Of a stretch of 64,000 nucleotides of DNA, positions 5,701 through 45,827 are shown piece after piece. Source of the stretch: Amyelois transitella (taxonomy: Eukaryota > Arthropoda > Insecta > Lepidoptera > Pyralidae); contig NC_083510.1 of assembly GCF_032362555.1 (NCBI RefSeq), positions 8,893,501-8,957,500 on the forward strand. Reading direction: 5' to 3'. The position numbers and the translations under genes were made by a program. The notes under the pieces are model-generated. The model was not told the DNA's origin. It was given only the letters and a program-made list of their open reading frames with translations, and searched no databases. How positions within the stretch are numbered: position 1 is the first letter of the stretch; the number at the start of each line of letters is the position of its first letter.

Positions 5701-6568
5701 TGGGCTAGCAACCTATCACTATTTGAATCTCAATATTATGAACGTGGCCTAACAGTATTTTCAAAACTGTTGGCTCTGGCTACCGCGCAAGGGATATAGA
5801 CATGATTATATGTATGTATGTACGATAAAAGTATGAATTTGTTCACCTGCGTTCAGTGCCGTGTGGTCCCCGGCACCAGTACAAAAAAGAATAGGACCAC
5901 TCCATCTCTTTCCCATGGATGTCGTAAAAGGCGACTAAGGAATAGGCTTATAAACTTGAGATTCTTTTTTAGGCGATGGGCTAGCAACCTGTCACTATTT
6001 GAATCTCAATTCTATCATTAAGCCAAATAGCTGAACGTGGCCATTCAGTATTTTCAAGACTGTTGGCTCTGTCTACCCCGCAAGGGATATAGACGTGACC
6101 ATATGTATGTATGTATTTGTTCACCTGTTGTGGTGGTTGCTGCGGGGTCTGCGCCCCGGGGATCAGCTCGACCTCACTGTCGGGCTCCAAGGTCTCAAGT
6201 CTGGAGGGAGCGCCGTTCGAGCCCGCGTTCGGGTTTCCTGAAACCAATCCAACATTGCATGAAGAAGTTGTGACGCTAATTCAAAATTCAAAATTTTTTA
6301 TTCATTATTATAGGATATTATTATATCGCTTAATAATTGTCGTATGGTTTAACAACTTGGTTGACGTCAAATAAATTACTTAAAAACTAAGTTTACTGCC
6401 GCTTCCAAGGCGTCAGTGCAGAAGAAGCGGTAACAAACTGCACTGCAGCATTTTCTTCACAACGTCAACTTCACAATATTAATTTATACTTAGAATAGAA
6501 TGTGGACGGGAGAATACATTGTTCACGGGAGATTTATATATTTGTGAGATTTAATATTGAAAAAAGAA

Positions 6569-6608
<40 letters not shown>

Positions 6609-12600: not shown

Positions 12601-15600
12601 AAAAAGAATAGGACCACTCCATCTCTTTCCCATGGATGTCGTAAAAGGCGACTAAGTGATAGGCTTACAAACTTGGGATTCTTTTTTAGGCGATGGGCTA
12701 GCAACCTGTCACTATTTGAATCTCAATTCTATCATTAAGCCAAATAGCTGAACGTGGCCATTCAGTCTTTTCAAGTCTCTTGGCTCTGTCTACCCCGCAA
12801 GGGATATAGACGTGACCAAATGTATGTATGTATGTATGTATTTTTGTTACAATTTATGTGCAACAAAGGGTATTCTATCTTTCTATGTAATCCTCTTTAA
12901 AAAAAGCCGCTTTGATGTTGTGTGTGGTCATCACCAAATTTCTGTTGTCTGTAAAATATTTTTCGAGTTTACCGTTGTGCGTTAAAATGTGAAATATATC
13001 CACTTTTTCATTTTAAAACTGCCTTCATTTCAAATCTTATCAATAAGTATAACATATACTTTAATCAGCTTAATTGAAACTCCGCTTCCAAATACAGATT
13101 AGACTAAACAAGATTGATATTATCGGAAGGAACCTAAAAGTATGAATGTATTTAGTATGTAGGATCCGTCTGGCCGTCACCCAGTTAAGCTTCGTTGTAT
13201 GGACTGCGTGTTACAGTGTTTACGACCTTACAGCCTTCGTAGTCATCGAATTCGTCATCTAGATTAGACAATACATGCTCTCCTTTCACTATCAATAGTG
13301 TCGTCATTGGTACATGTTCCAAAATCGTCGTAACACAAGAATTCATACAAGTGGACACGATTAGAATCGTACAAATTTGGAGTAAAGAATCACCGAAGAA
13401 CATCTGAAAGATATACATAGTTATTAAGGGCAATTCTAGAAAGATATTCTATACTGTGTAATTAACCAAATGTGGAAAAAATAATCAGATATATTCAGTT
13501 CTGACTCTTAATATAACCTATAATCAAAATAATTCAACGTTTAAGTTGATCAAAGACTTATTAACACTTAAAAACAATTCATTTCTGAGCATGCTATCAG
13601 AACCTTTTTTGTTGTTGCAAAATTATATCATCCAAAGCAATATGCTGAGCAGTTACTATTACGGGAACATTCACCTCTTCCTTGCGTCTACACGACACGC
13701 ATGATTCATCATGAGATTCATTCTTACGATTACCTGGAATTAGATTTTATTTACGTTCCCACATTTAGCAAAAATTTTTTATGACTACGTAAAGTAACGT
13801 TTAGGAGATCTGGATCGACAACATTTTCGGCTGTATATAAATAACCTCGCAGTATTTATAAGTTAAATTTCCAAGTCCCACGGCAATTAGGAAAAGATCA
13901 TGAACCATCATTACCTGTCTGGCTACTGAATTCTAAACATCAATCTTATTAAGTGATGAGTATTAAGGTACTTTTATATTCATCTCAAAATAAATTTTAC
14001 GTTTCAACATAAACATTGTTGTTTATCGTAAATCACACACAATCTCCACAATTTCTTCTTTGATTTGTTGGAGCCACCACTCCAGATTCCGAAAGAATTT
14101 TCATGCAATCAATCATCAATGCTTTTCATGTGCGCTGCCTTTTTTAATGATTTTTCCTATATATTTTGGTTTACTGAAAGAAAATCCCAATTGGAATAAG
14201 TCCGCTATTGTACATATTCTCCTTAATCCAATAACTGTTTTGTAATTTGATATAATAATTTTTATGTGCAATACAGAGTTTACAAACAAACAAACAAATT
14301 TATATTCTGTCCCACAACCAAGACGATTTAATACCTCGTTACGCGTTACAAATCGCGACCAAACAAAACGGTTCAAAAACGCCCCTTCCCATATTGCAGA
14401 AACTGTCACACACACTTTAACAGCGGGCATGTCAACGTCTTCATTCCTTATTGCATCACAAAGCAAGGCGAGTGCATGTAATTTACAGGTAATTGCAAGA
14501 AGTGACAGAAGAGGACTCGCGCCGGTGACTTTGCTCAGTGTAGCTACCTTTTGACCTGGTTTTCACGGTTGCTTTGAAGCTATGATGTACTGAAGGGTCT
14601 CGTTTTAGAAATGGATTTTTAATCGATATTTACTTATGCAATGTAAGGTGAAGTTCCAATTCAATATTTGAGATATATGTTATAGCTATTTTATCCTAAC
14701 AAATTTTAATTGATTTAAATTAACAACTGAATTGGCCTAAATAGCAAGAAATAATGTAGCTACAACTGAAGGAGGCTATAACACATGATTTGGTTGAACA
14801 AGACTAAAAAGAAGAATTGATAGGATTATTCATCGATAATTTAACAAGAAGTTTAGTAGTAGTGACACTATAACATATAAAATTATTTATTTAATTTTCT
14901 TTAAAAAGTATTTATTTCAAGAAATGTGTCAGTTTTGTAAGTTTCTTTAGTGACACAGTTTCACTATTCTGTACATTAGACTAACCCAAATATCTACCGA
15001 TGTTATTCGACTTTTCTTAAATTTTCATAATATATTGTTGAATCATTAATAATTTAAAATAAAACTGGTTAAGAAACTTAATCGCATTCCCACAGGGCTT
15101 GGTTTATCAATGAGATTATTAAAATTCTGAAGCTACTAATATGGAAGCAGTTAATATAAACCATTACAAAATGTCACCCAATGCTAACATCCTCCTTAAT
15201 ACAGTCAGATGTCTATCAAGAAGATATAAGATGTTTACAAGTTTTCAACGCTTATATTACATCCTTTTTGATAAATTCAATCTGTACGTACGTACATGTA
15301 CCTATGTTTGAAAAAACTTATGTTTTAATGGTATTAATGTTACATTGGGTAACTTACATTTTTGAATAGTATATACTTTTAAAAAGTATGAGTGTACATT
15401 GAATGAGTATTTAAAAAATAAGTATTAATTGGGTGATCAAGTAATAGTAGTCGTTTGACAATTTAAAAAATTACTTCTGTTTGTAAAAAAAAACGCTTGT
15501 CTCTGGACGCGGCGAACAACTGGATTTTACTGGTAACTGTAGAACTAAGAAAAAGTACTAACAATTATGAAATATTCTTGACTTATCAGTGGATTTTTCA

Positions 15601-16995
15601 CTTTCACTAAGACTAACACACAGATAAACTGTTTGTAAGAAACTGAAATAGACAGTATTGTGGAGCTTTAGAAGAAGGGAAAGCATTTTTTGGGTAGCTT
15701 TATTGTAGCTGTGTTATTTTATGCATTTTTATAGTGCATAAAACTTATTACATATAGAAAAATAAAGGCAAGAACCGAACAAATTTGTAAGTTCAATATT
15801 ACTTTTACATGAGTAGGGGTTGATTACATGCCTCTACAATCGAGTCATGTAAGTAAATAATAGGCAAATCACGTATCTTGATGGTATTCCAGCATAGTGG
15901 ATAATGTACGGAACCTAATTAGTTCCTTATGGCCTATTGTCTAAGCTAGTAAGGTTAGTCATTCTTGTTAACTTGAGGTAAAAGCTAACGTATGGTATAA
16001 CAAAATATACATTCGTGAACTTGTTATTTGGAGAATGCGTAATGATATTTACCATTATTTTACATGTAATATTATTAAGTTAATAACTTAATGATGGAAA
16101 AAAATATTAAAGTATGCAATTAAAGTAAACTGTTAAATAAGAAATTCCTAGCTACTTTTACAGTTTAGGGCAACACTCATCAATTAATCAATGCCTATAA
16201 AATTAAATGTTGCGTTATTTAAAGATAGACAAAGTACAGTCGAAAATACTGAAAAAGCTGTGGCATAGTTAAATGTTTATACGGAAATTCCCACGAGAAT
16301 CGGAAATAAATGAAACTTTTCTTTACTCGGGTGGAGCTTTTGTCGACATAATCAATAACATATATATGTTTTCCCGCACTGATAATTAAACCTTTCAAAT
16401 TTGGCACTTGCTATCAGTTAACAAAAATGTGAATACAAGAATGAGTGTTTAATGTATTCACGAAAATTAAGTCAGAGTTAACAAATTCTACGTTATTTGT
16501 ATGTTGATTAATAATTTAAATTGAATGTCATCATAACTTAGCTACTTGAAAATCTATGGGACATAGTGCTTTACTAAGTAGTGTTGATTTAACTATGTTT
16601 ATGAATATGGATATGAATATTACAAGTCTCATTCATTTTAATTGCAGTTTATAATTTAATTTGTAGTTTACTTTTTTTCACTAAATATCTTGTTTATTTT
16701 ACATAAATTAGTTTCAGATTTATCTGATAAACTAAAAAAATAGTTTACATTAAGACAAATATTAGAGATCATGCTGTTTAGGTTTGTAAGAAATGAGTTC
16801 AAAAAAATCTAAAACAAATTGTATGAATTTATGCGCTTTCGGGAGTAACTATTTCAGAAATATCCCCGGAAGCCGATTAAAAAAAGTAAAAAAAGAAGAG
16901 TGAAAATCAGAAAAAAATCCTTGCAATCTTCCACTTATCATCCACATTAATTATTAAAAAAATAATTTAAAATTACTTACAACGTGTTTGGCCAT
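2757..16995 (-). CDS. Uncharacterised secreted P/Q/G-rich protein, 290 aa, nine exons
   Basis: Exons, 5' to 3' on the minus strand: 16995-16981, 8177-8077, 7726-7662, 6237-6125, 5463-5384, 4814-4735, 4311-4137, 3488-3373, 2884-2757. Every junction keeps frame, and the coding sum is 873 nt including TAA. Exon 1 gives MAKHV and exon 2 supplies the hydrophobic core (YLLSCLWLAVSA), so the signal peptide spans intron 1 with likely cleavage before APPSPP. The mature part is Gln/Pro-rich, then carries two related segments (VFIVHMPVPGYRPG and QPVYIVAAAPQ), then a VLLDPSGQAVISP/VGYPRQFG region and a Gly-rich stretch, and ends in a charged Lys/Arg/Glu tail. I recognise no enzyme or adhesion domain. It is probably an extracellular structural or matrix-type protein; function unknown. 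The exon 5 donor (AG/GTCCCG) is weak but is the only phase-consistent choice I see. Confidence 0.85.
5656..5822 (+). mobile_element. Family A element, 5'-truncated copy
   Basis: This copy begins inside the family at GTTAAGGGATAGGC, continues through GGCGATGGGCTAGCAACC and GTTGGCTCTGGCTACCGCGCAAGGGATATAGAC, and ends in ATGTATGTATGTA. It lies about 27 bp before the next copy in the same direction, in the intron between exons 4 and 5 of the minus-strand secreted-protein gene. Confidence 0.8.
5850..6114 (+). mobile_element. Family A element abutting exon 4, with 13-bp target duplication
   Basis: This is a near-full-length copy from the GTGCCGTGTGGTCCCCGGCACC head to the (ATGT)n tail. The 13-bp sequence ATTTGTTCACCTG occurs directly before it (5837-5849) and directly after it (6115-6127). 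A duplication of this length fits target-primed (LINE-type) insertion. The right-hand copy contains the last three bases of exon 4 and its GT donor on the minus strand. Confidence 0.85.
6571..6605. repeat. (AT)n microsatellite
   Basis: About 17 AT units follow the 3' end of the retrotransposon fragment at 6688-7233, so it may be that element's simple-repeat tail. Confidence 0.85.
6688..7233 (-). mobile_element. C-terminal fragment of a non-LTR retrotransposon polymerase (jockey-like)
   Basis: An open frame of 181 codons has the layout seen after the reverse transcriptase palm in jockey-type LINEs: a segment like YFHSLLSYGLLLWG, then IQKRAVRAIYGL, then a basic stretch with RLSKVSKSFMGNCIRFYNRLPE. 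The catalytic FADD region is absent and the upstream side runs into T-rich sequence with stops, so this is a 5'-truncated insertion lying in intron 3 of the first secreted-protein gene. Downstream comes an (AT)n tract. The intact frame suggests a fairly recent insertion. Not a host gene. Confidence 0.85.
7400..7545 (-). mobile_element. Family A element, decayed fragment
   Basis: The reverse-oriented landmarks ACGTCTTTATCCCTTATAGGGTA, CTAATGGCCTTTCAATC and CAGGTCGTTAACTCATCGCCTAAAA are recognisable but heavily mutated. Confidence 0.6.
8779..9331 (+). mobile_element. Family B (CCCGCGACTTCGTCCGCG) repeat split by a family A insertion
   Basis: The left part (8779-8875) starts CTAGCTATGCCCGCGACTTC and includes GGGCATCACTGAAGCCCTCAAGG. 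The right part (9135-9331) continues with CACATTTTCCATTATTTCTTCG and ends GCTTTATAATATTAGTATAGAT. The copy at 61903-62176 has the same two halves joined, which shows that the 259-bp family A element at 8876-9134 is a later insertion. Confidence 0.8.
8876..9134 (+). mobile_element. Family A element nested in family B, with 12-bp target duplication
   Basis: ATCTTTTTTCAC lies immediately left (8864-8875) and immediately right (9135-9146) of the insert, so both ends are defined: about 259 bp, head GGTTCCCAGCACCAATAC, tail ATATGTATGT. The variable-length duplication and simple-repeat tail point to retroposition, not cut-and-paste transposition. Confidence 0.88.
9720..9910 (+). mobile_element. Family C repeat, diverged
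   Basis: It contains CGTGAGGAAACTTGCATGTTCACCAGATTGAATG, the core seen in better copies at 18690-18880 and 42460-42640, followed by GACGCAACCGGGAATAAGCC, which recurs near 45035. No coding frame. Confidence 0.5.
10868..11125 (+). other. Open frame of 85 codons inside an intron, doubtful gene
   Basis: This plus-strand frame lies antisense within the 8.8-kb first intron of the minus-strand gene. It has an acidic central part and no signal peptide, membrane segment or motif I know. Length alone is not convincing in AT-rich DNA, and I see no clear flanking splice sites. I list it only because its composition (many Asp/Ser codons, few repeats) is less obviously random than that of its neighbours. 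Confidence 0.12.
11830..12540. mobile_element. GC-rich repeat remnant, probably a retrotransposon fragment
   Basis: Base composition jumps well above the surroundings, especially 12220-12490, which has short open frames with Arg/Pro/Gly-rich translations. This resembles a 5' or untranslated part of a LINE. I cannot name the family, and no reverse transcriptase motif is visible. Confidence 0.4.
12596..12842 (+). mobile_element. Family A element, 5'-truncated
   Basis: It starts at AATACAAAAAAGAATAGGACC (head missing), keeps all later landmarks including CTACCCCGCAAGGGATATAGACGTGACC, and ends in five or so ATGT units. Confidence 0.85.
13185..13403 (-). CDS. Possible alternative last exon: small secreted peptide, 72 aa
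   Basis: On the minus strand a good acceptor (TATATCTTTCAG) directly precedes an ATG that opens a 72-codon frame ending in TAA. The N-terminus (MFFGDSLLQICTILIVSTC) looks like a signal peptide. The rest has an acidic patch (DDEFDDYEG) and three Cys after the hydrophobic core. It lies inside intron 1 of the first secreted-protein gene. Its acceptor is phase 0, the same phase as the MAKHV exon donor, so it could be an alternative terminal exon of that gene (about 77 aa), or a separate gene with a non-coding first exon. No family recognised. Confidence 0.4.
   Translation of the reverse strand: MFFGDSLLQICTILIVSTCMNSCVTTILEHVPMTTLLIVKGEHVLSNLDDEFDDYEGCKVVNTVTRSPYNEA
13597..13733 (-). CDS. Possible terminal exon of an unidentified gene
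   Basis: An acceptor (CTAATTCCAG) is followed by a frame of 45 codons including TGA, with a hydrophilic translation containing a CVSC pair and ending ILQQQKRF. It needs a phase-1 donor upstream, so it cannot join the phase-0 MAKHV exon, and I found no matching upstream exon between 13.7 and 17 kb. It could be a genuine orphan exon or chance. Confidence 0.22.
13860..13930 (+). mobile_element. Fragment of a tRNA-headed SINE
   Basis: The stretch from AAGTCCCACGGCAATTAGGAAAAGATCATG matches, with changes, the block CAAGACCCAGGGCAATCAGAAAAAG beside the tRNA-like head of the copy at 41880-42145. Confidence 0.4.
14000..16980. other. Intron sequence without a recognised feature
   Basis: This is the upstream part of the first intron of the minus-strand secreted-protein gene. 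The overlapping open frames at 14116-14466 (minus) and 14264-14554 (plus) sit in somewhat less AT-rich DNA but show no motif, splice pattern or start context that I trust. Confidence 0.4.
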
Positions 16996-20213: not shown

Positions 20214-21828
20214 ATTAATCGTATTCCGTTTTTATATTTAACACAGCAGTTTAAAAAAGAAGTTGTTAAATTCAACCAATCCAGGATCCATGATCAAAAG
20301 CCTGGTTCCTCTGCAGAATGAAGAGAGTGTAACTGGTACTTAAGCCAAAAGCAGAAAAAAATAAAGGTTGTTAGACTTAATAGCTTATTATTTATCTTCT
20401 TAATTCTAGCTGCGCAACCCACAGGCGGGATCAACCTTTGAAACCTTTTTAGTTGGAATTTTGAGTTGATACTTGTAAAGCCACTAATTCAGATGTGGGC
20501 ATAATTTTCTTTACACTTTATATACGAGAACTAGACTCTACCTAGGGAATAATGCTTGTCATGAATTTTGCTATATAAAATTTAAAAGGCGCGAAGTAGT
20601 ACAGTCTAGATACTGGTTTAATAAAATTTAGACAAATTATTAGTTTTGAGAAAACAATATACACATTTTCTTATACCAAGTGTACCAATTTTGTTTTTTT
20701 TTAAGGTGTTAATCTACTACTTGGTAAAATGAAATGTACAATAAATAGTTTCATATCACGTTGATATGATACCGTTGTTTATTGCCATGTAAGTATAGAG
20801 ATGCTATCAAGTAAATGTCTTATGCATAGTGATGTAGAATCAAGATGGATATTAAGGATGGAAAGTCTGAAATAATTATAAAGTTGAAGAATTCTCCATT
20901 GTTTGATGGGAATCGGTTCAAGAAATAAATTTAGGTGTTGACTTATGTAAGTTTTGAGTCAATAAGTAGAAAATCGAATGGGTAGGTATGGACAAAGACG
21001 TGACTTTATGTATGTATGTAAGTAGTTACTCATGGATTGCATAAAAGTATTGTGTTTTGAAGAAGGATAGCAGATAGTAGAGTAGTAGAATACAGGATCG
21101 TGGTCATAGGCTATAAGGCTTTTCTCCAGTCAGGCAAGAACACAATCGGGTGAAAAATTATTTTATAGATAATATGGGGCAACGGTTTGTGAGCTTGGTT
21201 AATCTCTGTTATATCACAGAAAGTCAAGATATCGTTACCTATGACCTCAACAAACTCCAATTTCGACCTAAATCATGAAATATCCAACTCGTCTTTCTTA
21301 AAAAATGCTGTACTATAAAATAGGTTTTTTTTTAATAATCTGGGAATTTGCCACCCTTCAAACATACCAGAGGTTGTTATTGAGGAATTGACAAAGACAC
21401 ATATTGGAAATAATTTAATCATTAGTATAAGAATAAAAATAATAAATATTGATTGTATTTATAAGTAGATCATTATTACAATGATTTTTAGTCTCATTTA
21501 GACATTATTATCACGTTTACTTATTTTCATAGTTCTTAAGTATTTAAGTTATAATAAAGGGGAATAAATGTGACAAAATTTTCATTAAGTTGCGTAATGG
21601 ATACGAGGAGCAAATGAAATTACCCTAGAATGGAAATGGGTAAAAAATCATGATGTGAGTCATTAACCATCACTCATTGCGATTATAATTCAATTTTTAA
21701 TTTTGCTAAATCAATTTAACTTTTGTTTTAAAACTGTTATGGCACTTATTTAATCTAAAGATATCTTTTAGATTTTATATGTCTTTTTTAGATTTATCAT
21801 GATTGTAAGTATTTCAGGAGTAATCATA

Positions 21829-24800
21829 TCAGTTTTTTGAATGGTTGATTGATAAATTCAGCCCTAAGGCCGCAGGGTTGACACCAGCGACCGCAGTAGC
21901 TACTGGTCTAGCAATAGCTATACCCGATACTGCTACAGCTGTGCCTATCGGTCTTGAAGCTGCTAAACCATTCTCTCCAATAACAGCTAAACCTGGAATG
22001 AATATTATAAAACATGTTTAATATGAAGAAAATTAAACTAATGAGGGTTCATTTTGATACTTCATTGGCGTATCACTCTTAATTCAGGAAAGCGAGTATA
22101 AATTGTTATATTTATTAAAGGTCTTATTCCTCCTGGCGTTAGTCCATCTTCACTCTTTTGGAGAGGAGCCCTGGGTGCGCCTTTACTATAAACGTGACGT
22201 TTATTATTATGGTATAAACACAGAACAGGGAATTAAAAAATGAAGTCAAATTTGTGAACTAACTTTAGTATAAACTCTTACCAACTGGTTTGGCCTCAGC
22301 AACGGTAGCACCTCCTAAAAGAGCATCAGAAAAGGAATCATCTCCATTTGGGGCATCTATACCGATGCCTTCCTCGTTTATCTAAAAAATAAAATTTATA
22401 TTAAAATTGTCATAGTTGCGAAAAATAAAATAAAAAATTAAAATTTGTTTGGTATCTGTGACAAATATATGTAATTATTGAATACAAAAATATAAAAAAA
22501 TACCTCATCTGTCTCGTCCTCTTGATATTGTCTTACTTTGGGATTACTTTTGAAGAGACCATCAATATTGTCAGAAACTTCTTCAATAAGTTTAATTGTA
22601 TTCGACGCTGTTTCTCCAAGTTTCTCTAATTGGCTTTTAAATCGTTCTTTATCAGCATTGTCTAAAGAACCAGTCCTCCTCCCCAAATTGTGAAGTTTAA
22701 GTGTACTGCTCGATAGTACTTTTAAGCTTTGCAAATTTGCTGCAAGCACCTTCGCAAGAAGATTTTCGTCGCTATTTTTGATCACACTGTCCATGCTGAT
22801 TTTGTCTTCTGATACAACTAACTCGCTTATGACTCTGCCTGATGTATCTTTTTTTATTTCTAGGTACATACCCTTGCCCCCGCCGTAGAAGGGTAAGTAT
22901 TGTACTGAGCCACTAATAAAAATAAAAAAGAATATTAATGATTTTTTGAAATTAAATTCACTTTGAAAATATTAGGAATCCAAGTTTTATTATTAAATAC
23001 TCCGTTATATATATAACAGTAAGTAAAATATTAAGTCGTATTTATTTTGTAACAGTTGTGAGTTTAGAAGAAATAAAAGAGTCTATACGTTCATATATTT
23101 TTATTTCTAATTTTTTTTAAGGATACAAAATTAAAGCCTAATTTACAAATATTTATATATGCACGTTATATTCAGAAAATAATTCAAGTATCCAGTCGAA
23201 TCGGTTTCCGAAATTGCATAGATTCTACAATTTTAATTCTTATTTCTAACTTAAATGCATTTTAGGAATAAAAGATTGAGTATTAAGTCTCTGGAAGTCG
23301 ACTTACACATATCCTGTATAACTTTTTAATATTTAATGTATTCATATAAATTTAAATCCGATTGAGCATGAGCTATGCCCCCAGGACCAGCCACAGCTGT
23401 TGCCATTGGAGCATGTTCTATCGATGCTGTCTCATTTTGAGAGATCACTACATTTGATACTGGATTAGCTATAGCTACACCAGAGCTAGTAAGTGCGAAA
23501 GCCCTTGGTTTCACAAAGAGCATAAACTTAGGATGAATTGTTAAATGTCTTTCTTTCACAAATCTGCCACGGTTGTAGTGGTAAATGTCTGGCCTCCAAT
23601 TATATTCTTCCCTCTTATACTCTCCGTTATCTCCTTGGAATCCTCTTCGCTGTTCTCCTCGGAATAATCTAAGAAGGAAGAAAGACGAAAGTTAATATAC
23701 AGATAGATGAAAAATGAAGTGAAGATAATAGATAAGAGAAAGAAATTAAGATTGATCATTAAAATTTGAATTATAATAAATAACAGGGCCAGTCGCAACG
23801 ACTTTCCCTTCAGGTATTTCTTTTAAAAATCTTGGTACAGAACCATCTTTTGCTGACAAGTGATGTAGCTGGGAGATTATTGACGAGAGATTGCTGTCTG
23901 GCGATAATGCTACTACGCGAGCGGCTGGTCCAGCAACTGCAAGTCCGCCAGGCTGTGTGTAGGCGAGTCCACCCGGTCCTACTATAGCTGTTCCACCCCT
24001 TCCAGCAGTTGCAACTCCTCCTGGCCCAGCGATTGCTACACCGCCTTTTCGAACTTTAAGTCTATTGATGAAAAAACCTGGACTGGGAGCCACGGGCTTC
24101 TTTTCGCCGAAAAATGTAAACGCTCCAAATCGCAAATCACCGTCATCTTCGTTAGTATTTTTAACATCCTTTGTTGGTTCAATTGAAGAAACAGGTTGTG
24201 GCCTTGCAGGTTTTTGGGTTGTATTCGGCTTTAATAGGAATTTTTCCGACTTTTGTTGAGTTTTTGAATCATCTGTAGATGTAGATTTAGATACGTTTCT
24301 TTTTTTAAGGGCTCTTCCTTCCCTAGAGCTGATGGTCAACTTTTTTGTTATGTTGTCATCGCTTTCTGTTTCGTTATCAGATGCATCTTGAAATGTCAAT
24401 TCATTTATTTGTTCAGAAGATTTCTGTTTTCTACTGCATACATCAGCGTTTTGTCCTGCCTCAAAGATATTGCTCCAACCACCTCCTTGAAGGAATGTTA
24501 GGAAAGGATCTTTGATTAATATAGGAAAGTACGGTGCCAAAGGCCATTGGAAGGGTAATGATGGCAGCCCTTGTCTGTTTTGATAGTGCGATATTCCATC
24601 AACATTATTGTAATCATGTCCTGATCCTGGATTATAAGCATTTAAAGTAGGCATAACAAGTACAGGGATATTTTGAACGTATGGTAGTGGTATAACAGAA
24701 GGAGTAATTTGATTTCCTGCCATAATTTGGGGGTTGTATGGCAAGCTTTTTGAATATCGTTGGATATTTCTATGGAAATCATTTAACGAATTACTTTCTT

Positions 24801-27800
24801 GATAATTATTCGTTTCTAAAAGCGGTTGTAGTTTACCAGACGCAATGATTTGTTGTAATTTTTCTAAAATATCTCTGTTAAGAACATATCCACCAGGATT
24901 TGGTGACTCAGTATTGTATTTTATTTGTTGTCTTCGATTTGGTTTTTTTAATGCTGCATTCACAATGTTTATTTTGTCTAAAATTTCTTTTGTATTGTCA
25001 AGAAGTGTTAAATATTTTTCTTTTTCATTTAATAGCTTTGCCTCGTTTCCTTCTGTATCCTCTTCTATATTTGTTGGCGTCGTCAACCTGAAAAATTAGA
25101 AATTTGTAAATTTAATTACAGTTTTTTGAAATGTAATAAACCATACCCAGCTATGTATTAATTTTGCATGTACGCTAATAAAGCAGTGATTAAAAGCATA
25201 AATATAAATTAGAAGAGGGCATACCTGAACCAAGTGTTCTTGAGATACTTCAGTGCACATATGGAACTCTTTATAAAGCGGTAGATATATTCAAAATTTG
25301 ACTTTGTAATATTACTACATACACGTTAGAAAATTTTAATTTGTTGGGAATATACCACTGCCTTATAAAGGCTTAAAAAAGCCTTTGCTGTAGTTGTTAT
25401 TGTTAGTGATGCTTTCAGTGCTATATTTATAGTGAGTTTAGTTTTTTTGGTTTAACTAGTGTGGATTATGTTTAAATATAGACCTTTTCGACAAGTTATT
25501 ATAATCATAATTATAGATTGATCTTAAAGAGCGATAAGTTATTCTTAATATTAATGTAGATTGTATTTTTATATACCGATTTTAATGTTATGCTACTCAT
25601 TCCGTTTGTAAGATTAGATAGACGGATAACCTATCAGTTAGGTAAGATTATTGTGTACGGTATCGATTTTAAATTTGATAGGAGAAGACGCAAAAGACAG
25701 AGTTTAGAAAGCACTAAACCTATATTATATCTAACTGTCTAGCCTAACTTCCCGAGACGACATTTTAGAAAGCATTGTTACATCTTTTAAAGTTTTCAAC
25801 TAAGTACTTCTAAAAGTTTTATAAAATAAAAAAAAACACTTACTCATTACTCGACGGACGACTTGACACTTCTAGTAGAAAACATGTACAGAGGATCTGA
25901 AAAAGAAGAAGAAAATTGTTTGCTAAATGCGATAAAACGATATTGGTAAAATGGATATTTGAAACAAAACTTGACTCAAAACATGCTTTGCTCAAGTTTT
26001 ATAGATGCATGCATGTTATTAACCAAAAAAATGTATATTAGTCTGTTTCACTCGCTCATCGTGACGTGTATTTTATATCATTCACATTGATAACAAGTGA
26101 TACTTTACATGCTTGAAAAATTTGGAACAGTTTTATGGTAGACTGCGTCTTTCTCATTCGTGTTTGAAAATGTTTAAAATACAGTCTTTGTCAAATAAAT
26201 GAGTTCTAGTTTCAAACTAGTTTGAATAAACTCATCGATGAAATAATGCAAATATAGAGGAAACTGGATCCAAATTATCATTTAAGTATTATTTGTTTAT
26301 GTTTCTCTTTGAAAAAGAAAGTGGTTCGTGTGAGGAGAAACTTGTTAAGTTTGTCATGTGTAATATTTGCACGATAGTGTAAAAGCGAAAAGAAATCACT
26401 AAAAATAGTTTAAGATTGTAAGAATAGCCCATCCTTATTAATGGTCTAACCAAATAGAATTAAGTCTATAAGCTTCGTAATTTTAGAGCTATTATTTTGG
26501 CTATAAAATTTATTACCATTTTTTTTAATTGTAGAATATATCAACAAAACTAGAACAACTTTGGAAAAATATTACCTTATCTTATGATAATAGTAATAAT
26601 ATAACAGTATTATTAAATTTCTTTTAGTTGCAATTTATTTAGTTTTATCCCATTACATTGATAGCTAAACTGACAAAAATTTCGATTCATTTTTCCTTAA
26701 TAAACATAAGTCTATTTTTTTAAAATAGTCAATAAGATCAAATACCGTTGAAATAAGAAAAAACACAATGCAAACAACTAAGTTCTACCGTTAGCACATG
26801 TTATAAAATAAAGTTTATATCCTTTGAAAATTAAGCAAGTGTGTTGGACAGATGGAAAAATATATTTATCATTCGGAATAAAGGATTGAGCAAAAAACTG
26901 GTAGCGTTCATGTGCGATGTGTTTTTTTTTTTTTATTTTTTAATTTTACAAGTAGGTGTCCAATTAACTGGGTTTTGTTCTTTTGTCAAAACATGTTAGG
27001 TCCGCTTCGGTCAATAACACTGTATAAAGTTCACTGGTCTTAATAAAGATACGAAATTGGAAAAACATTACTACATTTGAATTCGGACGGTTTTTATCAA
27101 ACAAATATTTTATTCAAGAGCCTTTGAAGAATTGAGATAAGATTATCAGTATTGAATTCAAAAGAAATGTCTGAATTAAAATAAGCACAAGTTCATATGA
27201 CGTGTTAATAATTTTGTTAAATTTTATTGTTTGTGCGAATACTATTGGTGGGATCTGTGCTATTTTTCCTATTTCTCAATATGGCCAATGAAGTCGACTA
27301 ACGGATTATCTACCATCGTATTATATCTACCAGTTATTACCAAATACAAAAACTTTACAACCAATAATAACGGACGGCACTTATATGCGGTTATAGCCCA
27401 AGAATAAAACTTGTATTATTCTTGGGCTTGTATTATAGTTTTGTTTTATTTTTGTTTTAAGTTTTACCCCTCAAGGAACATAGACGTGATGTCTGTATGT
27501 ACGAGTATGTATGTAGACAGACCCATATCAAATTGAAAGACTGATAAGCTACGTTCAGCTTGATAGAATTGAGATTCAAATAGTGACAGGTTGCTAGCCC
27601 ATCGCCTAAAAGAAGAATCCCAAATTTATAAGTCTATCTCTTAGTCGCTTTTACGACATCCACGAAAAAGATGGAGTGGCCCTATTTTTAAAAGAAACAA
27701 AAATATTATCACGTCTTTATCCCTAACCTTTTAATAAATAAGGGATTGGATTGGACTTGAATAAATTAGGGATTATTATTAGGTACAAGACTTAAGTTCA

Positions 27801-30342
27801 GTTAGATGGCAAAACGTTATAGAGGACTCAGATTGTTTAATTTTATATCGCAGACGTGTTTTACTTGGTCCAGCTTGAAAACTGGTATACAAAAAAATCT
27901 CCCCCTCCAACTCTCTAAAGGGCGAAATACAGGGGTAAGCTTTTTCAGTAAACTTTTGTGGCGAACGAAATCATAGTTTATAGCTTATCTTTAAGTTTTC
28001 AATTTAAGCTGTTGATATTGGCAATTGGCAAGTAGCCTCGAGTCATTGTGTCGTTGACCGTTGAAGGCGAAAATCTAGGTCGAGTGAGGAGGCACCGTTA
28101 TCAGGTTCGATTTGGCGATAGCTACCTTTCTTGTCCATTATTGTCCATACTATTTAAGATTAAGCTCCAAAGTTTATGGTAAACATATATTTTCACCTAG
28201 TTTCATACGGTTTTTATGGCAGCGTGGTATGAGTCTTCGAAATTTGAATTTGGCTTTATTAGTGCACTATAGTGCATGCGAGATGCGAGATTTTAAACAC
28301 CCGAGCTAACTATAGTTAAAATCTCGTATAAAGATGCACGTATTTTTAGTAGGTACTGAGAAATAACTATATACTTCATCCCGTAAAAAGGTGCAGGAGG
28401 CTTAGACAATGTAGTATCGCTTCTTAACGAAACGATGTCGTGGAACGAAAATGTGAGCGAGTGAAGTCGCAGACAAAGGAAGGAAATATAAAGGAAGTTA
28501 CCGACTGATTGACTGACATATCAACCGCTTTAATCGCTGGATCTAGAGATTTTGATTTGGGGTGTAGGTTCCAATATATGGTCTTTATTTATTTATGATG
28601 TTATATGTTTGGAAAACTTACAGCTAAAAACTTAACGACAAAATAAATATAAGGCCATTTACAATTTCTTGGGGTGAACTAAGACAAGATTTTCCGAAAT
28701 ATTCGTGGGAAGATTCGATATAACCCCGTAGTCCACTTTGTTTATTAAACTTACGTAACCAGTCACAAGAGAAGATTTGTTTCGCTGTTTGGTAAAACTA
28801 CGCGAACGGAGTCGCGGTCATATGTACGTTCAAAAGATAAAATAGAACAATACCTATCTTAAAAAAAGTTAAATCGTTGGCATTGTCTAATATAAAAGCT
28901 TAGCAATCTACAGGCACGATGTTGTCCCCAAAATGTCGAGATAAAGCAAGGCAAGGCAAAGCCATTATAAATTGCAATCAAATCACTTTAGACAGATACT
29001 AGCTTTTACTCACAGCTGAACCCGCGTCTAACTAAAATTTCTTTTATTTTCGTTCCTATGGGATTTTCAAATATTCTTAATTAATGCTTTTGTATATTTC
29101 TAGAGTAATATAATTATATTATAACTTCATACGTTTACTAAGTAACGCAGTAACTCGATAAGACAAGACTTTTTTATACATTAATATTTATTACTGATCA
29201 AATATACTGGATGTTGCACTCAGTGCTTCATAAAGAATAAAATGATATAATAAAATGCACAAAAGTCATGTTTATTAAATAGAATCTACTCAATTAAAAC
29301 GTTTTATACAAATACAATTATAATAGTAAAGTGACACACTTGCATTTTATGAAAGTGGTTGTATATAATAGCTCGTCATGACCTGTATAAGTTGGAAAAC
29401 AAAAAGTATCAAGCCGTTTATCTTGACGACACAATTGTAGGGTCATCATTGTCATCAAATGTAACTTTAAAAAGATAGATGTCCGGCTTTGAAGTCTGTA
29501 AAAATTGAGACTTGATAAGACAGGTCTTGTTAAAACTCTTTATGTTTTTCTTATTTTTATGTGAAATATTTTATACTTTTATTCCTCCTGGCGTTTATCT
29601 GACAAGTGTACTTCTCTGGAGAAAAGCACAAGATGTGTCTTTTGACAATGATAATGCTCCCTTAGCCAAGTGTTAAGCGTTCGGAAGCGTTTTTATATTA
29701 CGAGCCGCTGGCGTCTTAGATTATTATTCCTCAGAAACCGCGTAGCAGCTTTGCATAAATTATTGCCCTCTTTTTAAGCTATGATTGTATGGTGTCACTC
29801 CATCTAGTGATAAATTTATCTATGGCTATCGCTTTGACAATGGCGCTTTGTTTGTCGATTTACATTTCCTAAACGGGATGAAATGGGTAAGTCATACGTT
29901 TTATATTCTTAGTTATTTTTAAAGATATCTTTAAGAGAACGAGTGATAGGAGTATGTGAGGAAGTTTGTAAGGTACAATTATATTTTTTAATTTGTGATC
30001 TAACGAGGTAAGATATCGAATAAAAGTCACTGATCGACAGTAGGAGAATAACATAGTTTTTGTCAATTCTCCGAATACCTTAGTTCCATTATGTATTTGA
30101 CTCTTGTTTTTCTCAACGACAATCATTGAATACAAATTCCAATTTTGCTTTTTAAGTACATGTACATTGCAAATTTATGACTGCATAAAACTACATATCT
30201 TGGTGGTTTAACTTTTTTAAAAGACAGGTATCTGAGCGTACGCATCGATAGCATATTTTATTTAGTACTAGCTTCTGTATGTGGCTTTGTGCGTGTTAAT
30301 TATAGGCAATATGTATGAGTTGTATTACTGTAAAGTATCTTC

Positions 30343-30383
<41 letters not shown>

Positions 30384-31743
30384 TCAGCTGTTTATTGCCA
30401 TTTAGACAGTGTTGAAAAATGCTTCTGCACTGGGGGCCAAGATGGTGAAAATAACTTATTTTATATGTCTGTGGAATGAATTAAATATGTGCAGAGTGCC
30501 TTCAAAAGCAGAATTTTTCCCACAAATTAATATTTTTTGTCGGCATAATATCGCAGTATTAGTTTAGGTTTAGGTTTGTTATCTTGTTTAAATACAACGT
30601 TTAATACCTGCAACAGCGTTGGGCTGGACGTATTGTTACAGAGAGTAAGCCCGAAAAATTATTTTGGTTACTTCGAACCTATAAAAAAGTCGTACAAAAC
30701 TAGAAAGCAGGTAAAAAAATAGTTGCTAGGACTTGGACTACGATTTGAATCTCGGCACAACTAGAACCAAATTGAAATTGAACAAGCGAGGAAGAAAAAT
30801 ATGTCTAACACTGAACGCTCGCAAATATGTTGAGAATTATATTATTACGTGAATTTTATGACTGAGAAGTTGTGTAGTGTACTACTCCACGCTAGATAAC
30901 GTTTCACTCTTGTCAATAAAGTATAACAAATAGAAAGGTCAGATTGCACACCGCGACGAAACTTCAACTAGTTTGCCTTTTGAAAACCGGAGTGGGCTAC
31001 AATTACGTTGTTACCTAGAATCGAAATAAAAACAAAACAAAAGTATACAGCAGAAGCAGACCTTAATGTGCATGTTTTTGTATGGTAATTTCATGAATTA
31101 GTGTTAGCAATTTGGTCGGGATTCAATTTATAAATTCGTTTCTGACAGCGGTCGTAACAAAAATATCTTCATTATTTTATAATAAAAAATATGCAAATGA
31201 GCCTTTACTTGAAATGCCTACAGGTACTTATGTACAATTTTAAATGCAATGCATTAGAGTCATTTATTTTTGTATCGTAATCTTTCCATCTTGTTCAATT
31301 ATTATAATATATTTGCAAATACTATCAATTACAAACTTCTGATTAATTTTAAGGGAAAATTTGCAAGTATGTAACACGAGTTCATTCTATTCAAATTGGT
31401 GGACACCAAGTAATAGGAGTTATTACAATTCATTACATCCCATAGATAATTGGATGTAGGAATATAAAATCGATTGGATTTGAGAATAATACAATCAACA
31501 ATTGTAGACACATTTCCTATTACACTCATGTTTTGTGAAAAAAATTGGTTATATTAGGTTATATATTGGTGTACCTATATGAAATATTAAAAAAATCAAT
31601 AAAGAAAAATAATCCTAACAGTCAATTATTAATAAAATAATGCTTGTAGTCAAAGAGTAAAATAAGGTAGCACCTTAAAGAGAGTAAAAAAAAATTACAA
31701 AATATTAACTTACCAATAATCCAGAGAAATACTGAGGCGCCAT
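21829..31743 (-). CDS. Secreted protein, module 3 isoform, about 251 aa
   Basis: Module exons: 22912-22504, 22381-22282, 21992-21829 (TGA). The first opens in phase 2, again fitting the leader donor at 25844 (split codon GA+T). Internal junctions are phase 0 and phase 1 with GTATTT and GTAAGA donors. The translation starts GSVQYLPFYGGGKGMYLEI, continues into a charged helical region (about 100 residues, with Leu/Lys/Glu repeats that may form coiled coil), then an acidic linker, then Ala/Val/Gly-rich GTAVAVSGIAIARPVATAVAG and ends LSINHSKN. It shares the low-complexity C-terminus style of modules 1 and 2 but has lost the PGG units. Assignment to the leader is by phase and lack of another start; there is no ATG exon between 22.9 and 23.3 kb that I trust. 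Confidence 0.65.
23326..31743 (-). CDS. Secreted protein, module 2 isoform, 141 aa (DUF4774-like)
   Basis: The last exon is 23668-23326. Its acceptor is excellent (a TATATTAAC branch-like site, then a pyrimidine tract ending CCTTCTTAG) and lies only 78 bp after the module 1 stop. The frame opens in phase 2, which matches the GA/ donor of the leader exon at 25844 and no donor at the end of module 1, so the likely product is leader plus 113 residues. These are a basic/aromatic region (NWRPDIYHYNRGRF), then HPKFMLFVKPRAFALTSSGVAIANP, then an Ala/Val/Gly segment with ATAVAGPGGIAHAQSDL, ending EYIKY. The final part is a shorter, decayed version of the module 1 repeat. If the leader is not used, this would be the end of a separate gene whose start I cannot find. 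Confidence 0.7.
23746..31743 (-). CDS. Secreted GPGG-repeat protein, module 1 isoform, 474 aa (DUF4774-like)
   Basis: Exons: 31743-31714 (MAPQYFSGLL), 25896-25844 (the rest of the signal peptide, ILCTCFLLEVSSRPSSN, plus two bases of a split Glu codon) and 25087-23746. The first two junctions carry textbook GTAAGT donors. The large exon is 446 codons: an acidic/Lys-rich N-terminal region, a long Pro/Asn/Gly/Tyr middle, a basic Ser/Thr stretch with KKRNVSKST, then at about residues 376-422 a Gly/Ala/Val repeat (AGPGGVATAGRGGTAIVGPGG and variants), ending with VVATGPVIYYNS and a stop. The PGG repeat resembles insect DUF4774 proteins as I remember them; their function is unknown. Predicted extracellular and largely disordered. 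The start has a short leader and an initiator-like TCAGTT at 31774-31779. Confidence 0.85.
26000..31713. other. Long first intron of the three-module secreted locus
   Basis: I see no exon here. It contains facing family A fragments (27466-27693), a (AT)n run at about 30349-30376, a short hairpin at 27398-27427, diverged repeats around 28400-28830 and at 29580-29640, and otherwise AT-rich unique sequence. Confidence 0.5.
27466..27693 (-). mobile_element. Family A element, minus copy with facing tail fragment
   Basis: At 27466-27520 a plus-oriented tail (CCCCTCAAGGAACATAGACGTGAT..GTATGTATGTAG) faces a minus-oriented body (27530-27693) with ATTGAGATTCAAATAGTGACAGG and GCCCATCGCCTAAAAGAAG. Two insertions or a rearranged copy. 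Confidence 0.7.
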
Positions 31744-33139: not shown

Positions 33140-33330
33140 TTGGTTTTTGTTCATCCTGGTTACTTCTCACCTCTTTGGAGAGGAGCCTAAGGTACATCTA
33201 TGCCCACCATCCTTCTTCATCCAATACAGGTTTCCTCACGATGTACATAACTCATAAAGAGTAATTGGTTCATGGCTGTGGTGGGATTGTAACCTGCGCC
33301 GTTGTCGATCAAACTTCATGTATGTATGGG
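33140..33330 (-). mobile_element. Family C repeat
   Basis: It contains CTTTGGAGAGGAGCCTAAGG, then CAGGTTTCCTCACGATGTAC and ATGGCTGTGGTGGGATTGTAACCTGC, the reverse-oriented core and B-box remnant seen in the other copies. Confidence 0.5.
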
Positions 33331-38937: not shown

Positions 38938-41900
38938 CTATCTCCTTTCCTCAATTTGGACTTCATAACCATCTACATGCCTCATGATAATGTCAAATTT
39001 GGTTCGTAATGGTTTGGTCTTTTTGCGTTTTTGAGAACCATGTGAATAAACATTTTTCGGTGGCAATAGCTTGAATTTCCTCACTAAGTTCGCAATAACA
39101 GTCATCATTGATGTCATTGCGTACCTTGCACCTGAAATAATAGTCAATTAGGTTTACATGCTGAAAAAATATTCAATAAGGGTACATGACTTGTTGTAAA
39201 TCTTTTGGATTTGGATATGGCCAACTTAAATACAATTTGTCTGAATTTAACTAAGCCATGGTTTGAAAACTAGCGTAACATAACAGTTGTTTCAGTTTGA
39301 ATTTAATGATTTTTCTTTGTTTTAAGTAACTAAGTGTTTAATCTTACCAACGCAATTTCTTACTCCAAAACTAAATGGCATATAAGCAGCTGGATGCTTT
39401 AGATTATTATCCAAAAATCTTTCAGGTCTAAAGTCTTCTGCGTCATTTCCCCAAAACGTAGGATTTCGGTGCATAGCCCAAATATGTATCACCGCGCCTA
39501 CGTCGGGCACAAGTTTGAAACCAGATGCTGAAATGTAAAAATGTGTATTATTTAACAACATTAAACGAAATTATAAAAAAAAAAAAAACAATAAGAACAG
39601 CAGATTTAAATGTTGGAACATGGATTCACATCCAATTGCCTGAATAAGCAGATTTCCTGATGGTATTTTCCCATATCGTAAACACGCCTTATAATAACCG
39701 TCAATACCCTTAATAGGATAAAACATAACTTACGCAGGATGTATTCCTTCTCGACCATTCTTACAACCGCTGGCACAGGCGGATAAAGTCTCAAAGTCTC
39801 CTTTATAACGGCTTCCAGATATTTAAGTCGAGGTATATCTGAAGGTTCCAATGGTCTGTCGGAGTTTCCGAGTACTTCCATTAGTCTGGAAATGGAAAGC
39901 GAATCTTAATTATCAGCTAAAATTTCCTTTGGGTGATCCCAGGTTTCTGTGCGATTTAGCTTTTATATTTGAGAGCGTAAGATCCACTTTGTATACATAC
40001 ATAAATATAAATGTCATAAATGTCAGGTTGCTAGCACATCGACAAAGAGACGAATCCCTAATTTATTAGCCTTACTCTTGATTGACTTTCATAATTTGCA
40101 CAGGAATAGAAGCACACTAGTACACAATATGTTTTTCTTTACTATTAGACCAGCATTTGTATTCCTAATATAACTTTGGAATTGGGCGAACACGCGGATT
40201 TCGGATAAAGTATGTTTTGCACCTAGCTAGAGATGTTGATTAGAATAGCAAATGTGCACAACTACCATTAAACTCTAAGAAAAAAATAAGGGGAGGTCAA
40301 CACTACCCAATATAACTGTTTCTGCACTTCGGCCAGATTAAAAAAAAATACTACATTTAAAAATGTTTTGCAAGAAAAGATTTCAATACAAAAACTTACT
40401 CTTCATACAATTTATCTTGAACGTGTTGATGCTGAGACAGCATTACAGCTGTAAACGAAGCGCCGGCCGCCGAAGTGTCAGTGCCTGCTAAAATTAGAAC
40501 TAACATTTCTTCTTGAAGATCTATGTCATTATACCCAATGTCAATGAGCTGTTCAAGGAAAGACTTTCGGCTGTTTTGTTGGTCTGTGAATAAAATGCGA
40601 ATAAATAACCTTTACTACGGGTAAAAAGTAGATTTTAAATTTTGTCTTCAAAATTTAACCAATCATTATACTTATACTTATTTCCACCAACTATTTCTTA
40701 TATACCTACTTACTTTGCAATTGGTCACATTCCGCAAGGTTTTCATTTTCAATGTCTCTAAATTTTATCCGTTTCGCTAAGATTACCTGAAATTTTAAAT
40801 GATTAACCTTTTCAGTGGAATCACAGTAATTTCATCCGATCGATCAGTTGTAATAGTTAAGCGTAGCCTTTTTTAATAGCGTTAATAAGTTTTAACTTTA
40901 TGCAATATTTATCAACATTGGCATTAAGAAAGTTATTGGTTATTTTTTTATTGAGAATTTGAGTGTCTTTCATCTCAATCTCCATATTATCATCGTCTGA
41001 TGATAATATAGAAGTCTCTCTATTATATTATCCATAGAAATCGAAATATTTAAGTCCCGTTGGAATTTAAGGCAATTTTTGTCATCACGAGTAACAGCGA
41101 GGTTATTACTAGCTATTATAGTAAATTATATTCCTAGATATCACCTACCTGTTTAACAAATTCTTGGAGTATATCAGTCTGTTTTTTATAAATGCGATAG
41201 CAAGGCATGAGTTTATATACAAAATCTGGGTAGAGCCACGATTGCATCAAGCGATCCACAACCATCTTCTCAAATGTTTGGAAAGCCAATAGAAATGGAT
41301 GGTATTGATTATTTTGGATGTCCATTTTGATTCCAAGGCTGGTTTCTGAAAAGTGAATTATTTTGATGAATAACTCCACATATTGTTGCAACATGAATTT
41401 TACCTGAAATTATAATTATAATTTATTAAATTGAAGTCACATAGTAAATAAGTGTTCGGGATCTTACCGCAAATAGCATCCATTGAATAAGCCGTAATAT
41501 ACTTTGATAAGGATATAGGTTGTCCACATAACTTCGTGAGCTTGTCTATCATATTTTCACTATTTCTCGTAAACACTTCTAGAAACATTTCCAAATTTTT
41601 TTGACTTAGCATTGGAGCGATGACTTTTCGACGGGGACGCCAAATTGGTACTAAAAGAGTATATTAGATTAATAAGATAAACTTTATGTATCCATACTTC
41701 AGTATTACTACCTACCTACTACCTATTTTTTGTCTGTCCGTTTTGCGGCTAAATCGCTTCAAATATAAGTAAGAATTCCTCTCTCAAACCTCCTACGTAT
41801 TTAAAATAGCTACGATTTTTTATATAGTTGCTTACTGTATGTACCTAATTTAAATATTTTCATCTTGAACTTATTGTTATTCTGAAGCCACTTAATAATT

Positions 41901-44601: not shown

Positions 44602-45827
44602 TTTTAACAGTAAATGAGTAACTTTAAATAAAAAAAAATGAAAATACGTCTGTTATGATAACCGATGCGACAATCTATCATTAACTAAAAATGTATGAAG
44701 ATTCCAAGTTTCAAGATAGTTACAAGCAAAATGACATTGAAAGGTTAGCAGGTATTGTTATTTTATGTATTTTTAATGAAACACTACTCGTATGGTTTAG
44801 AAATTTTACTACTCATACAAATTGTAAATGTGACAAAAATGTTTGCTAACGTACAATATTAACATCATTGAACATAATTTGGCTTGCATACAGCTAAAGG
44901 TCCGAATTCAAATGTAACTTACCTTTTTAAAAAACCACGGATAAAAGCTAGCAAGTAATCCTATCAGGCTTTCAAGACTAGACAAGGCTCTGTCTACCCC
45001 GTAAGTGATATAGACGTGATTATATGAATGTGAGGATGCAACCGGGATTGATGCCAGTAGGTATATTAATGATGATTATAGGTGTTACGCTGTTTGACCA
45101 CAAAGACACTTAAATACATATATAAAAAAAAGTTAATAAAACAGCAGTTATGTATTGTTTTTTTTTTGTCCCAGGCAATTAAGCACATTTAACAGTTTTT
45201 GTTAACCTTGTCATTTCTGCATAGTTGACAACTAATCAGCTTTTTATCCGATTCTTGACTCTCGCGACAGTTATTAGGTTTAATCGGAAAAATGAAAGTC
45301 TTTGACTGATATGTGGTTAGATAAATGATTATTTCAAAAACGATAAATTAAATTAACTTTATAAACATAAAAAAATTAAAACATACTCGAATAAATGTTA
45401 CAAACAATTGTTCTTTTTTTCTTTACAACCACAGAATCAAACTGTATGGTCCCATGTAAAAAAGCACCTTATGTAAGTAATACATTTTAGTTAGCTACTA
45501 ATAAAACATGTGATCAAAGTCGGGATCGTGAGTATGTGATACGTAAACCCACCAAACCAAATCTACTTATATACTAACTATATAATAATAAAATGTACAT
45601 GAAAACAAGTTTCTTAAATGGGTAGTTTTATTCAAATGTTATAGTTATTGAGGTAATAATATAACGCTAGTGTTTACTTCTACAGCCTATGATTTTTTTT
45701 CAACGCCAATTAGAGAAGTAATTAGAAAAAACATATTACCAAAAACGTCCCACAATTAACCTTTAAAGTCAGGGATTTTATGAATTTATTAAGGGGTAAG
45801 GTTTAATAGATTTGCTTTTTTATTTAC

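Follow-up and report, generated by a model that had tools for sequence, protein, structure and literature searches.

The question raised by this locus is whether one signal-peptide leader can serve three separate downstream coding modules, so that one lepidopteran gene would give three secreted DUF4774 proteins. The window, which is the whole stretch of DNA analysed, comprises 64,000 nucleotides from Amyelois transitella.

Leader exons and coding modules

On re-translation the exons, phases, split codons, stops and coordinates put forward in the sequence-only reading all proved correct. The features are as follows.

31714..31743, minus strand: leader exon 1, MAPQYFSGLL, with a phase 0 donor GTAAGT (placed by translation)
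25844..25896, minus strand: leader exon 2, remainder of the signal peptide, with a phase 2 donor (GA/GTAAGT)
23746..25087, minus strand: module 1, one exon of 446 full codons plus the split codon and stop, with DUF4774 towards its C-terminal end
23326..23668, minus strand: module 2, one exon of 113 codons plus the split codon and stop, DUF4774
22504..22912, minus strand: module 3 exon a, open frame, acceptor 4.21 bits, donor 1.35 bits
22282..22381, minus strand: module 3 exon b, frame unbroken across the junctions, weak acceptor (0.4 bits, 87.7 percentile)
21829..21992, minus strand: module 3 exon c, most of DUF4774 and the stop, acceptor 5.62 bits

The joined leader exons (30 + 53 nt) end in phase 2 and encode MAPQYFSGLLILCTCFLLEVSSRPSSN, in which the signal peptide and cleavage site were called solely with a simple rule based on hydrophobicity and cleavage. 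The phase of the leader donor fits all three modules, the split codons being GA+G (module 1), GA+A (module 2) and GA+T (module 3). As the leader ends in GA, the split codon is GAN whatever the first base of the module, which always means an acidic residue, Glu or Asp, and rules out a stop. Lengths of 474, 141 and 251 residues for modules 1, 2 and 3 had been given for the mature proteins; this was wrong, as they are the precursors including the leader and exceed the mature lengths by about 22 residues if the simple cleavage rule is right. Each module has its own stop, and there is no common downstream coding exon. Phase matching alone is weak evidence, since agreement of two extra modules has a chance of about 1/9 and whole-gene duplication would also give it.

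Module 1 sits in an open frame of 449 codons. The codon usage of all seven module segments scored above every one of 400 intron samples, for which an open frame was not a requirement, while the antisense frame scored slightly above the sense frame in the DUF part of module 1 (0.26 vs 0.25) and in module 3 exon c (0.29 vs 0.23). Both leader exons are short (30 and 53 nt); leader exon 1 was matched or exceeded by 7 of the 400 intron samples, and codon usage lends no support to leader exon 2, as 201 of the 400 scored as high.

The DUF4774 family (PF15999) was recognised in module 1 at 63.9 bits, in module 2 at 52.3 and in the joined module 3 at 49.7, all above the Pfam gathering cut-off of 25 bits. 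In the 327 Mb genome the model matched three times (4 of 4 candidates scored), these being modules 1 to 3, and it matched in none of 14 control genomes. Neither the portion of module 1 outside DUF4774 nor module 3 exon a had any genome match other than itself. A comparison of module 1 with viral contigs gave five pattern matches, none of which was confirmed, and no relative was found there. Predicted structures were not used as evidence: the C-terminal part of module 1 was poorly modelled (mean pLDDT 45.1), and the model of module 3 exon a (pLDDT 64.6) had no PDB match at an E value of 0.001 or better.

Splice sites and the order of the modules

Splice sites were scored with approximate matrices of rounded values that had not been fitted to this species, and were compared with nine donors and nine acceptors obtained by reading the neighbouring genes. 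For the leader, the exon 1 donor reached 4.85 bits (99.4 percentile of 3256 minus-strand GTs), the exon 2 acceptor 8.81 bits (percentile 100.0 as rounded) and the exon 2 donor at 25844 a modest 1.7 bits (95.5 percentile), with A at -1. Ranked among 3311 minus-strand AGs, the acceptors of module 1 (25087; 3.9 bits), module 2 (23668; 6.11 bits) and module 3 (22912; 4.21 bits) stood at the 98.07, 99.70 and 98.58 percentiles, within or above the range of the nine neighbouring-gene acceptors (-1.05 to 5.31). Only five AGs in 25800-21831 lie at or above the 98th percentile: these three, the internal acceptor of module 3 at 21992, and 22314, an AG within a module 3 exon.

The presence of the same domain in all three modules would also suit a single long protein with several DUF4774 domains, in which the modules are serial exons and the stops are the ends of retained introns. 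The donors speak against it. It had been claimed that module 1 lacks a phase-2 donor near its end, and this was borne out, the best phase-2 GT in module 1 scoring -2.3 bits (23858) against 1.40 to 7.37 for the nine neighbouring-gene donors; for a junction from module 2 to module 3, no phase-2 donor in module 2 exceeded -5.9 bits. The scored donors of modules 1 and 2 thus leave each of the two to end at its own stop, with none fit to carry its frame into the next module. The best donors in module 1, 2.6 bits at 24141 and 2.2 bits at 24483, are both phase 1, lie upstream of its DUF4774 part and would shift module 2 out of the DUF4774 frame. Module 2 also opens with a second frame (YSEENSEEDSKEITES..., stop codon 23556-23558), which was considered because the 2.6-bit donor would feed it; it was rejected on the better codon score of the DUF4774 frame (0.21 vs 0.13 per codon, 23667-23524) and on the domain. 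With phase-2 donors wanting, we reject the serial fusion and hold it to be extremely improbable.

Another explanation takes modules 2 and 3 as relics, or as sequences that no spliced mRNA presents for translation, either former exons now carried within the module 1 3' UTR or duplicates that are drifting. The leader splice to both is deduced rather than seen, both could ride in the module 1 3' UTR, and a donor-like site at 23307 (1.55 bits, about 20 nt below the module 2 stop) could join the tail of module 2 to the module 3 acceptor in a non-coding splice. Against this stand the open frames, codon usage above all 400 intron samples, DUF4774 scores well above the cut-off and strong acceptors, and we regard relics as quite unlikely.

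Intermodule gap and poly(A) signals

The sequences between and below the modules hold three further features.

23669..23745, minus strand: gap from the module 1 stop to module 2, 77 nt, 80.5% pyrimidine, the sole AG being the module 2 acceptor
23100..23105, minus strand: AATAAA, candidate and probable poly(A) signal of both module 1 and module 2, with a T-rich stretch after it
21749..21754, minus strand: ATTAAA, weak candidate for the poly(A) signal of module 3

The gap looks like the final part of an intron. It contains no ATG, no AATAAA and no ATTAAA, and without an ATG it cannot hold a coding first exon. The AATAAA at 23100..23105 was assigned to module 1 as well because there is no poly(A) signal between modules 1 and 2; further AATAAA motifs lie at 23046 and 22991. 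Modules 1 and 2 would thus probably be cleaved at a common poly(A) site, with a distal one serving module 3.

That module 3 sits beyond a poly(A) signal and differs in exon structure could mean that the leader is common to modules 1 and 2 only, or to 1 and 3 only, with the remaining module in an unrecognised transcript. The modules agree in phase and domain, however, and 36000-22913 yielded no leader of their own except the candidate at 31094-31015 described below, which makes such a partial sharing very unlikely in our view.

Search for other leaders

Modules 2 and 3 had been described as having no start of their own. This holds for the gap and for the sequence below module 2: from the module 2 stop down to the acceptor of module 3 there are four ATGs, none of which gives a phase-2 leader. 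One of these regions' candidates, ATG 23310 with GTAAGT at 23307 (4 nt on, phase 1), was rejected as it encodes no signal peptide. Any leaders of modules 2 and 3 must therefore lie higher up, where the claim needs amending, as besides the shared leader the scans turned up a single weak rival.

31015..31094, minus strand: rival single-exon leader in intron 1, MKLPYKNMHIKVCFCCILLFCFYFDS, phase 2 donor of 1.05 bits

The two-exon scan covered 36000-22913. With stricter thresholds, set after the real sites were known, it returned one candidate, against none in 30 shuffles and none on the plus strand. A repeat with relaxed thresholds gave 12 phase-2 candidates, seven phase-0 and none in phase 1, again with none on the plus strand; the exon 25896-25844 was used by 11 of the 12 phase-2 candidates, and none of 100 shuffles reached the total of the leader 31743-31714 + 25896-25844. 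An alternative exon 1 at 33197-33171 outscored 31743-31714 (total 17.06 vs 15.36). Its region has six other genome matches, one spanning the exon and five the adjoining DNA, and it was set aside as probably a repeat, which the matches suggest without proving. The scan is an unreliable judge of exon 1, since the exon 1 predicted at 16995 in the downstream gene was not ranked first either.

The candidate at 31094-31015 bears on the explanation by interleaved genes or alternative first exons, in which module 2, module 3 or both have a leader of their own upstream of module 1. Tandem duplicates of genes for secreted proteins usually retain their own leader, which we count in favour of it, and so do we this single-exon signal-peptide candidate with a phase-2 donor, whose DNA had no genome match other than itself. 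Yet its donor reaches just 1.05 bits, at least one such candidate is present in 16.5% of 200 shuffles, and it must still splice past module 1, giving transcripts that overlap those of the shared leader. We consider separate leaders unlikely.

Proposed mechanism

Three competing acceptors behind one shared leader is the best and most economical reading, and we hold it with moderate confidence, the splicing being inferred. The modules had been proposed to be mutually exclusive terminal modules; the shared leader and the alternative 3' coding modules survived the tests applied, but competing 3' splice sites describe them better than strictly mutually exclusive terminal exons. Mutually exclusive exons of the strict Dscam-like kind are spliced into common downstream coding exons, and no such exon was found here. 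The leader donor at 25844 would join one of the acceptors at 25087, 23668 or 22912. Choice of 25087 would give the 474-aa precursor, with the module 2 sequence as 3' UTR; a skip to 23668 would give the 141-aa precursor from the same poly(A) site as module 1; and the 251-aa product of module 3 would additionally need the transcript to run past the poly(A) site near 23.1 kb. Since the proximal acceptor scores lowest (3.9 vs 6.1 and 4.2 bits, the last difference being small), the distal acceptors could compete. Transcription, splicing, poly(A) site choice, secretion and a structural extracellular role, suggested by the repeat-rich domain, are all predictions from the DNA.

More tentatively, it is possible that the whole DUF4774 complement found depends on one signal peptide, as an old tandem array of genes for secreted structural proteins that has lost all leaders but one. 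A GA/N hub codon would then take any module, and acceptor strength and poly(A) choice would set the ratio of three extracellular proteins.

Comparison with known systems

Alternative coding exons occur in secreted extracellular proteins such as Drosophila dec-1 and Bombyx sericin 1. The layout had been thought undescribed for DUF4774-like proteins. In the literature searched, neither DUF4774 nor PF15999 appeared in any paper, so there is no described gene layout for comparison, but the layout itself has insect precedents (PMC4237046, PMC6585902).

The Locusta migratoria neuroparsin gene is such a precedent, in which a single family of similar exons is reported, with transcript data, to yield five hormone-like products (PMC4237046); the present locus would encode three DUF4774 proteins that are larger and strongly diverged, as predicted from genomic sequence. 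In Tribolium DH37/DH47 the first coding exon is joined by alternative splicing to either the second or the third, a pair that exon duplication probably produced, and beetle DH31 precursors have one N-terminus and different C-termini (PMC6585902). These are small peptide hormones, whereas the products predicted here are long, structural-looking proteins and module 3 is spread over three exons. A reported conotoxin splice variant is of a different kind (PMC3862624). The layout is not new for insects, given neuroparsin, DH37/DH47 and DH31; the family DUF4774 is unstudied.

If the shared leader is real, gene models that show three genes here, or that omit modules 2 and 3 because these lack a start, would be in error, and a single regulated locus would be the source of one uncharacterised family of insect proteins. 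The locus would also offer a simple system in which to study how the output of a shared leader depends on distance, acceptor strength and poly(A) choice. Should the arrangement be conserved, it would extend the leader-sharing array beyond hormones to matrix-type proteins.

Three related coding modules downstream of one proposed leader

The sequence-only reading had placed a two-exon leader, encoding a signal peptide, in front of three alternative 3' coding modules, each with its own stop:

31743-31714, minus strand: leader exon 1, 30 nt, ATGGCGCCT...
25896-25844, minus strand: leader exon 2, 53 nt
25087-23746, minus strand: module 1, downstream of the leader
23668-23326, minus strand: module 2, downstream of the leader
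22912-22504, 22381-22282 and 21992-21829, minus strand: module 3, three exons, downstream of the leader

Spliced in silico, the leader exons give MAPQYFSGLLILCTCFLLEVSSRPSSN, with a phase-2 end. Whatever the acceptor base, the split codon GA|N encodes Glu or Asp, hence the leader tolerates any of them. The lengths of 474, 141 and 251 residues, earlier given for the mature proteins, hold for the precursors including the leader; the mature proteins would have about 452, 119 and 229 residues if cleavage falls after residue 22, as placed by a simple rule.

Judged from their sequence, the modules are coding and mutually related. Modules 1, 2 and 3 match Pfam DUF4774 (PF15999) with 63.9, 52.3 and 49.7 bits, the gathering score being 25 bits. 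A search of the whole assembly (327 Mb, 33 contigs) with the DUF4774 model gave three matches, exactly these modules (all four candidates scored; genome counts are lower bounds), and 0 of 14 control genomes matched. Little in common was found outside the domain: BLAST among the joined modules, the leader apart, mainly aligned segments 24 to 91 residues long at 32-42% identity, most of them around the domain, and both module 1 minus its domain and exon a of module 3 matched only themselves in the genome. With a codon-usage model trained on 888 codons from neighbouring genes, each of the 7 module segments beat 400/400 intron samples, leader exon 1 beat 393/400 and leader exon 2 only 199/400. As these samples were taken without requiring open frames, and as the antisense frame had the edge in two segments (0.26 vs 0.25 in the DUF part of module 1, 0.29 vs 0.23 in exon c of module 3), the domain match is the stronger coding evidence.

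Splice sites and the gap between modules 1 and 2

Using an approximate, rounded splice scoring matrix, the acceptors of modules 1, 2 and 3 scored 3.9, 6.1 and 4.2 bits (percentiles 98.07, 99.70 and 98.58 among 3311 AGs), and nine neighbouring-gene acceptors scored from -1.05 to 5.31. Only five AGs in 25800-21831 reach at least the 98th percentile. Three are the module acceptors, a fourth is the acceptor for the last exon of module 3, and the fifth falls within a module 3 exon; the middle exon of module 3 has a weak acceptor (0.4 bits). The nearest in-frame stop lies 3, 8 and 20 codons above the acceptors of modules 1, 2 and 3.

The 77 nt from the module 1 stop to module 2 are 80.5% pyrimidine and contain no ATG, no AATAAA or ATTAAA, and no AG besides the module 2 acceptor, the next AG upstream being 135 nt away. 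The gap thus looks like an intron end, which would place the upstream coding exon of module 2 inside module 1 or above it. The former was already doubted, and we confirmed that no phase-2 donor within module 1 exceeds -2.3 bits, vs 1.40 to 7.37 bits for nine neighbouring-gene donors.

Searches for other leaders

Four ATGs lie between the module 2 stop and the module 3 acceptor. The only open-frame donor above -1 bit among them is at 23307 (1.55 bits, phase 1), 4 nt past the first ATG below the stop; a second donor passing -1 bit, at 22962 (-0.26), has no open frame from any of the four. Scanning 36000-22913 for single-exon phase-2 leaders gave one donor site, 31015 (exon 31094-31015, inside intron 1), with two possible starts, and at least one such candidate occurred in 16.5% of 200 shuffles.

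For two-exon leaders in this range, strict thresholds, chosen knowing the proposed leader, returned it as sole candidate, with 0 in 30 shuffles. Loose thresholds gave 12 phase-2 candidates, 11 of them with exon 25896-25844, and no candidate on the plus strand; shuffles held 1.05 candidates on average and 0/100 matched the score of the proposed leader. A rival exon 1 at 33197-33171 outscores 31743-31714 and probably lies within repeat DNA. Exon 1 at 31743-31714 is plausible, not fixed.

33150-33290, minus strand: probable dispersed repeat, CTCCTCTCCAAA..., with six further partial genome matches

By eye, a piece resembling this repeat is present at about 22120-22190 (minus strand), within the final module 3 intron.

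The phases of the modules do agree, as the sequence-only reading had stressed. For the two extra modules this agreement counts for no more than about 1/9, and it would also be expected from tandem duplication of complete genes. The case for one leader is strongest in how tightly the modules are packed and in the lack of alternatives, rather than in the phases; throughout, we infer the splicing of leader to modules from sequence.

Proposed splicing and polyadenylation

Most likely the leader donor competes for the three acceptors, with introns of 756, 2175 and 2931 nt to modules 1, 2 and 3. AATAAA at 23105 is the probable common end of modules 1 and 2, and when module 1 is chosen, module 2 would become an untranslated tail. 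Module 3 would need read-through of this poly(A) site, its transcript probably ending after ATTAAA at 21754. The lowest score of the three belongs to the proximal acceptor, which fits with leaky skipping, though the margin below the module 3 acceptor is small.

Neighbouring genes

36661-35807, minus strand: complete secreted-looking protein in one coding exon, just upstream of the leader, signal-peptide-like start MHCFICVTYMMILCSARPP...
about 3300-16995, minus strand: downstream gene, probable secreted protein with a probable split signal peptide, several short exons by eye
6688-7257, minus strand: 189-codon open frame inside the downstream gene's span
38940-44650 (minus strand) and 51000-55150 (plus strand): two genes with cytochrome P450 motifs
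42069-42140, minus strand: tRNA-like match
57736-58314, plus strand: open frames in two registers, three tandem 36-codon units with identical translations

Neither the 36661-35807 protein nor the partly guessed joined product of the downstream gene matched Pfam. The former gene probably starts with a non-coding exon whose end is at 37184. The latter probably begins with a short exon, 16995-16981 (MAKHV|GTAAGT), followed by a second, signal-peptide exon, 8177-8077, and extends by eye to about 3.3 kb; it is a predicted analogue of a short first coding exon and long intron before a signal-peptide exon. We take the 189-codon frame to resemble the last part of a reverse transcriptase from a non-LTR retrotransposon, and the opposite-strand pair to be putative P450 genes by their motifs (haem-binding FSFGVRNCVG and a second 10-residue one). 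The tRNA-like match, at 30.5 bits just above the Rfam gathering score of 29 bits, is perhaps a tRNA-derived repeat.

Comparison with known systems

The module 1 domain has visible octapeptide-like G-rich repeats, and its low-confidence model (mean pLDDT 45.1) has strands about every 8 residues; together these suggest, no more, a secreted structural protein. Searches of a literature library under the names DUF4774 and PF15999 found no paper on the family. The shared-leader layout is already known in kind. The Locusta migratoria neuroparsin gene (PMC4237046) is one insect precedent. PMC6585902 describes the first coding exon of Tribolium DH37-47 as joined either to exon two or to exon three, and precursors of beetle DH31 genes as sharing the N-terminus and differing at their C-termini.
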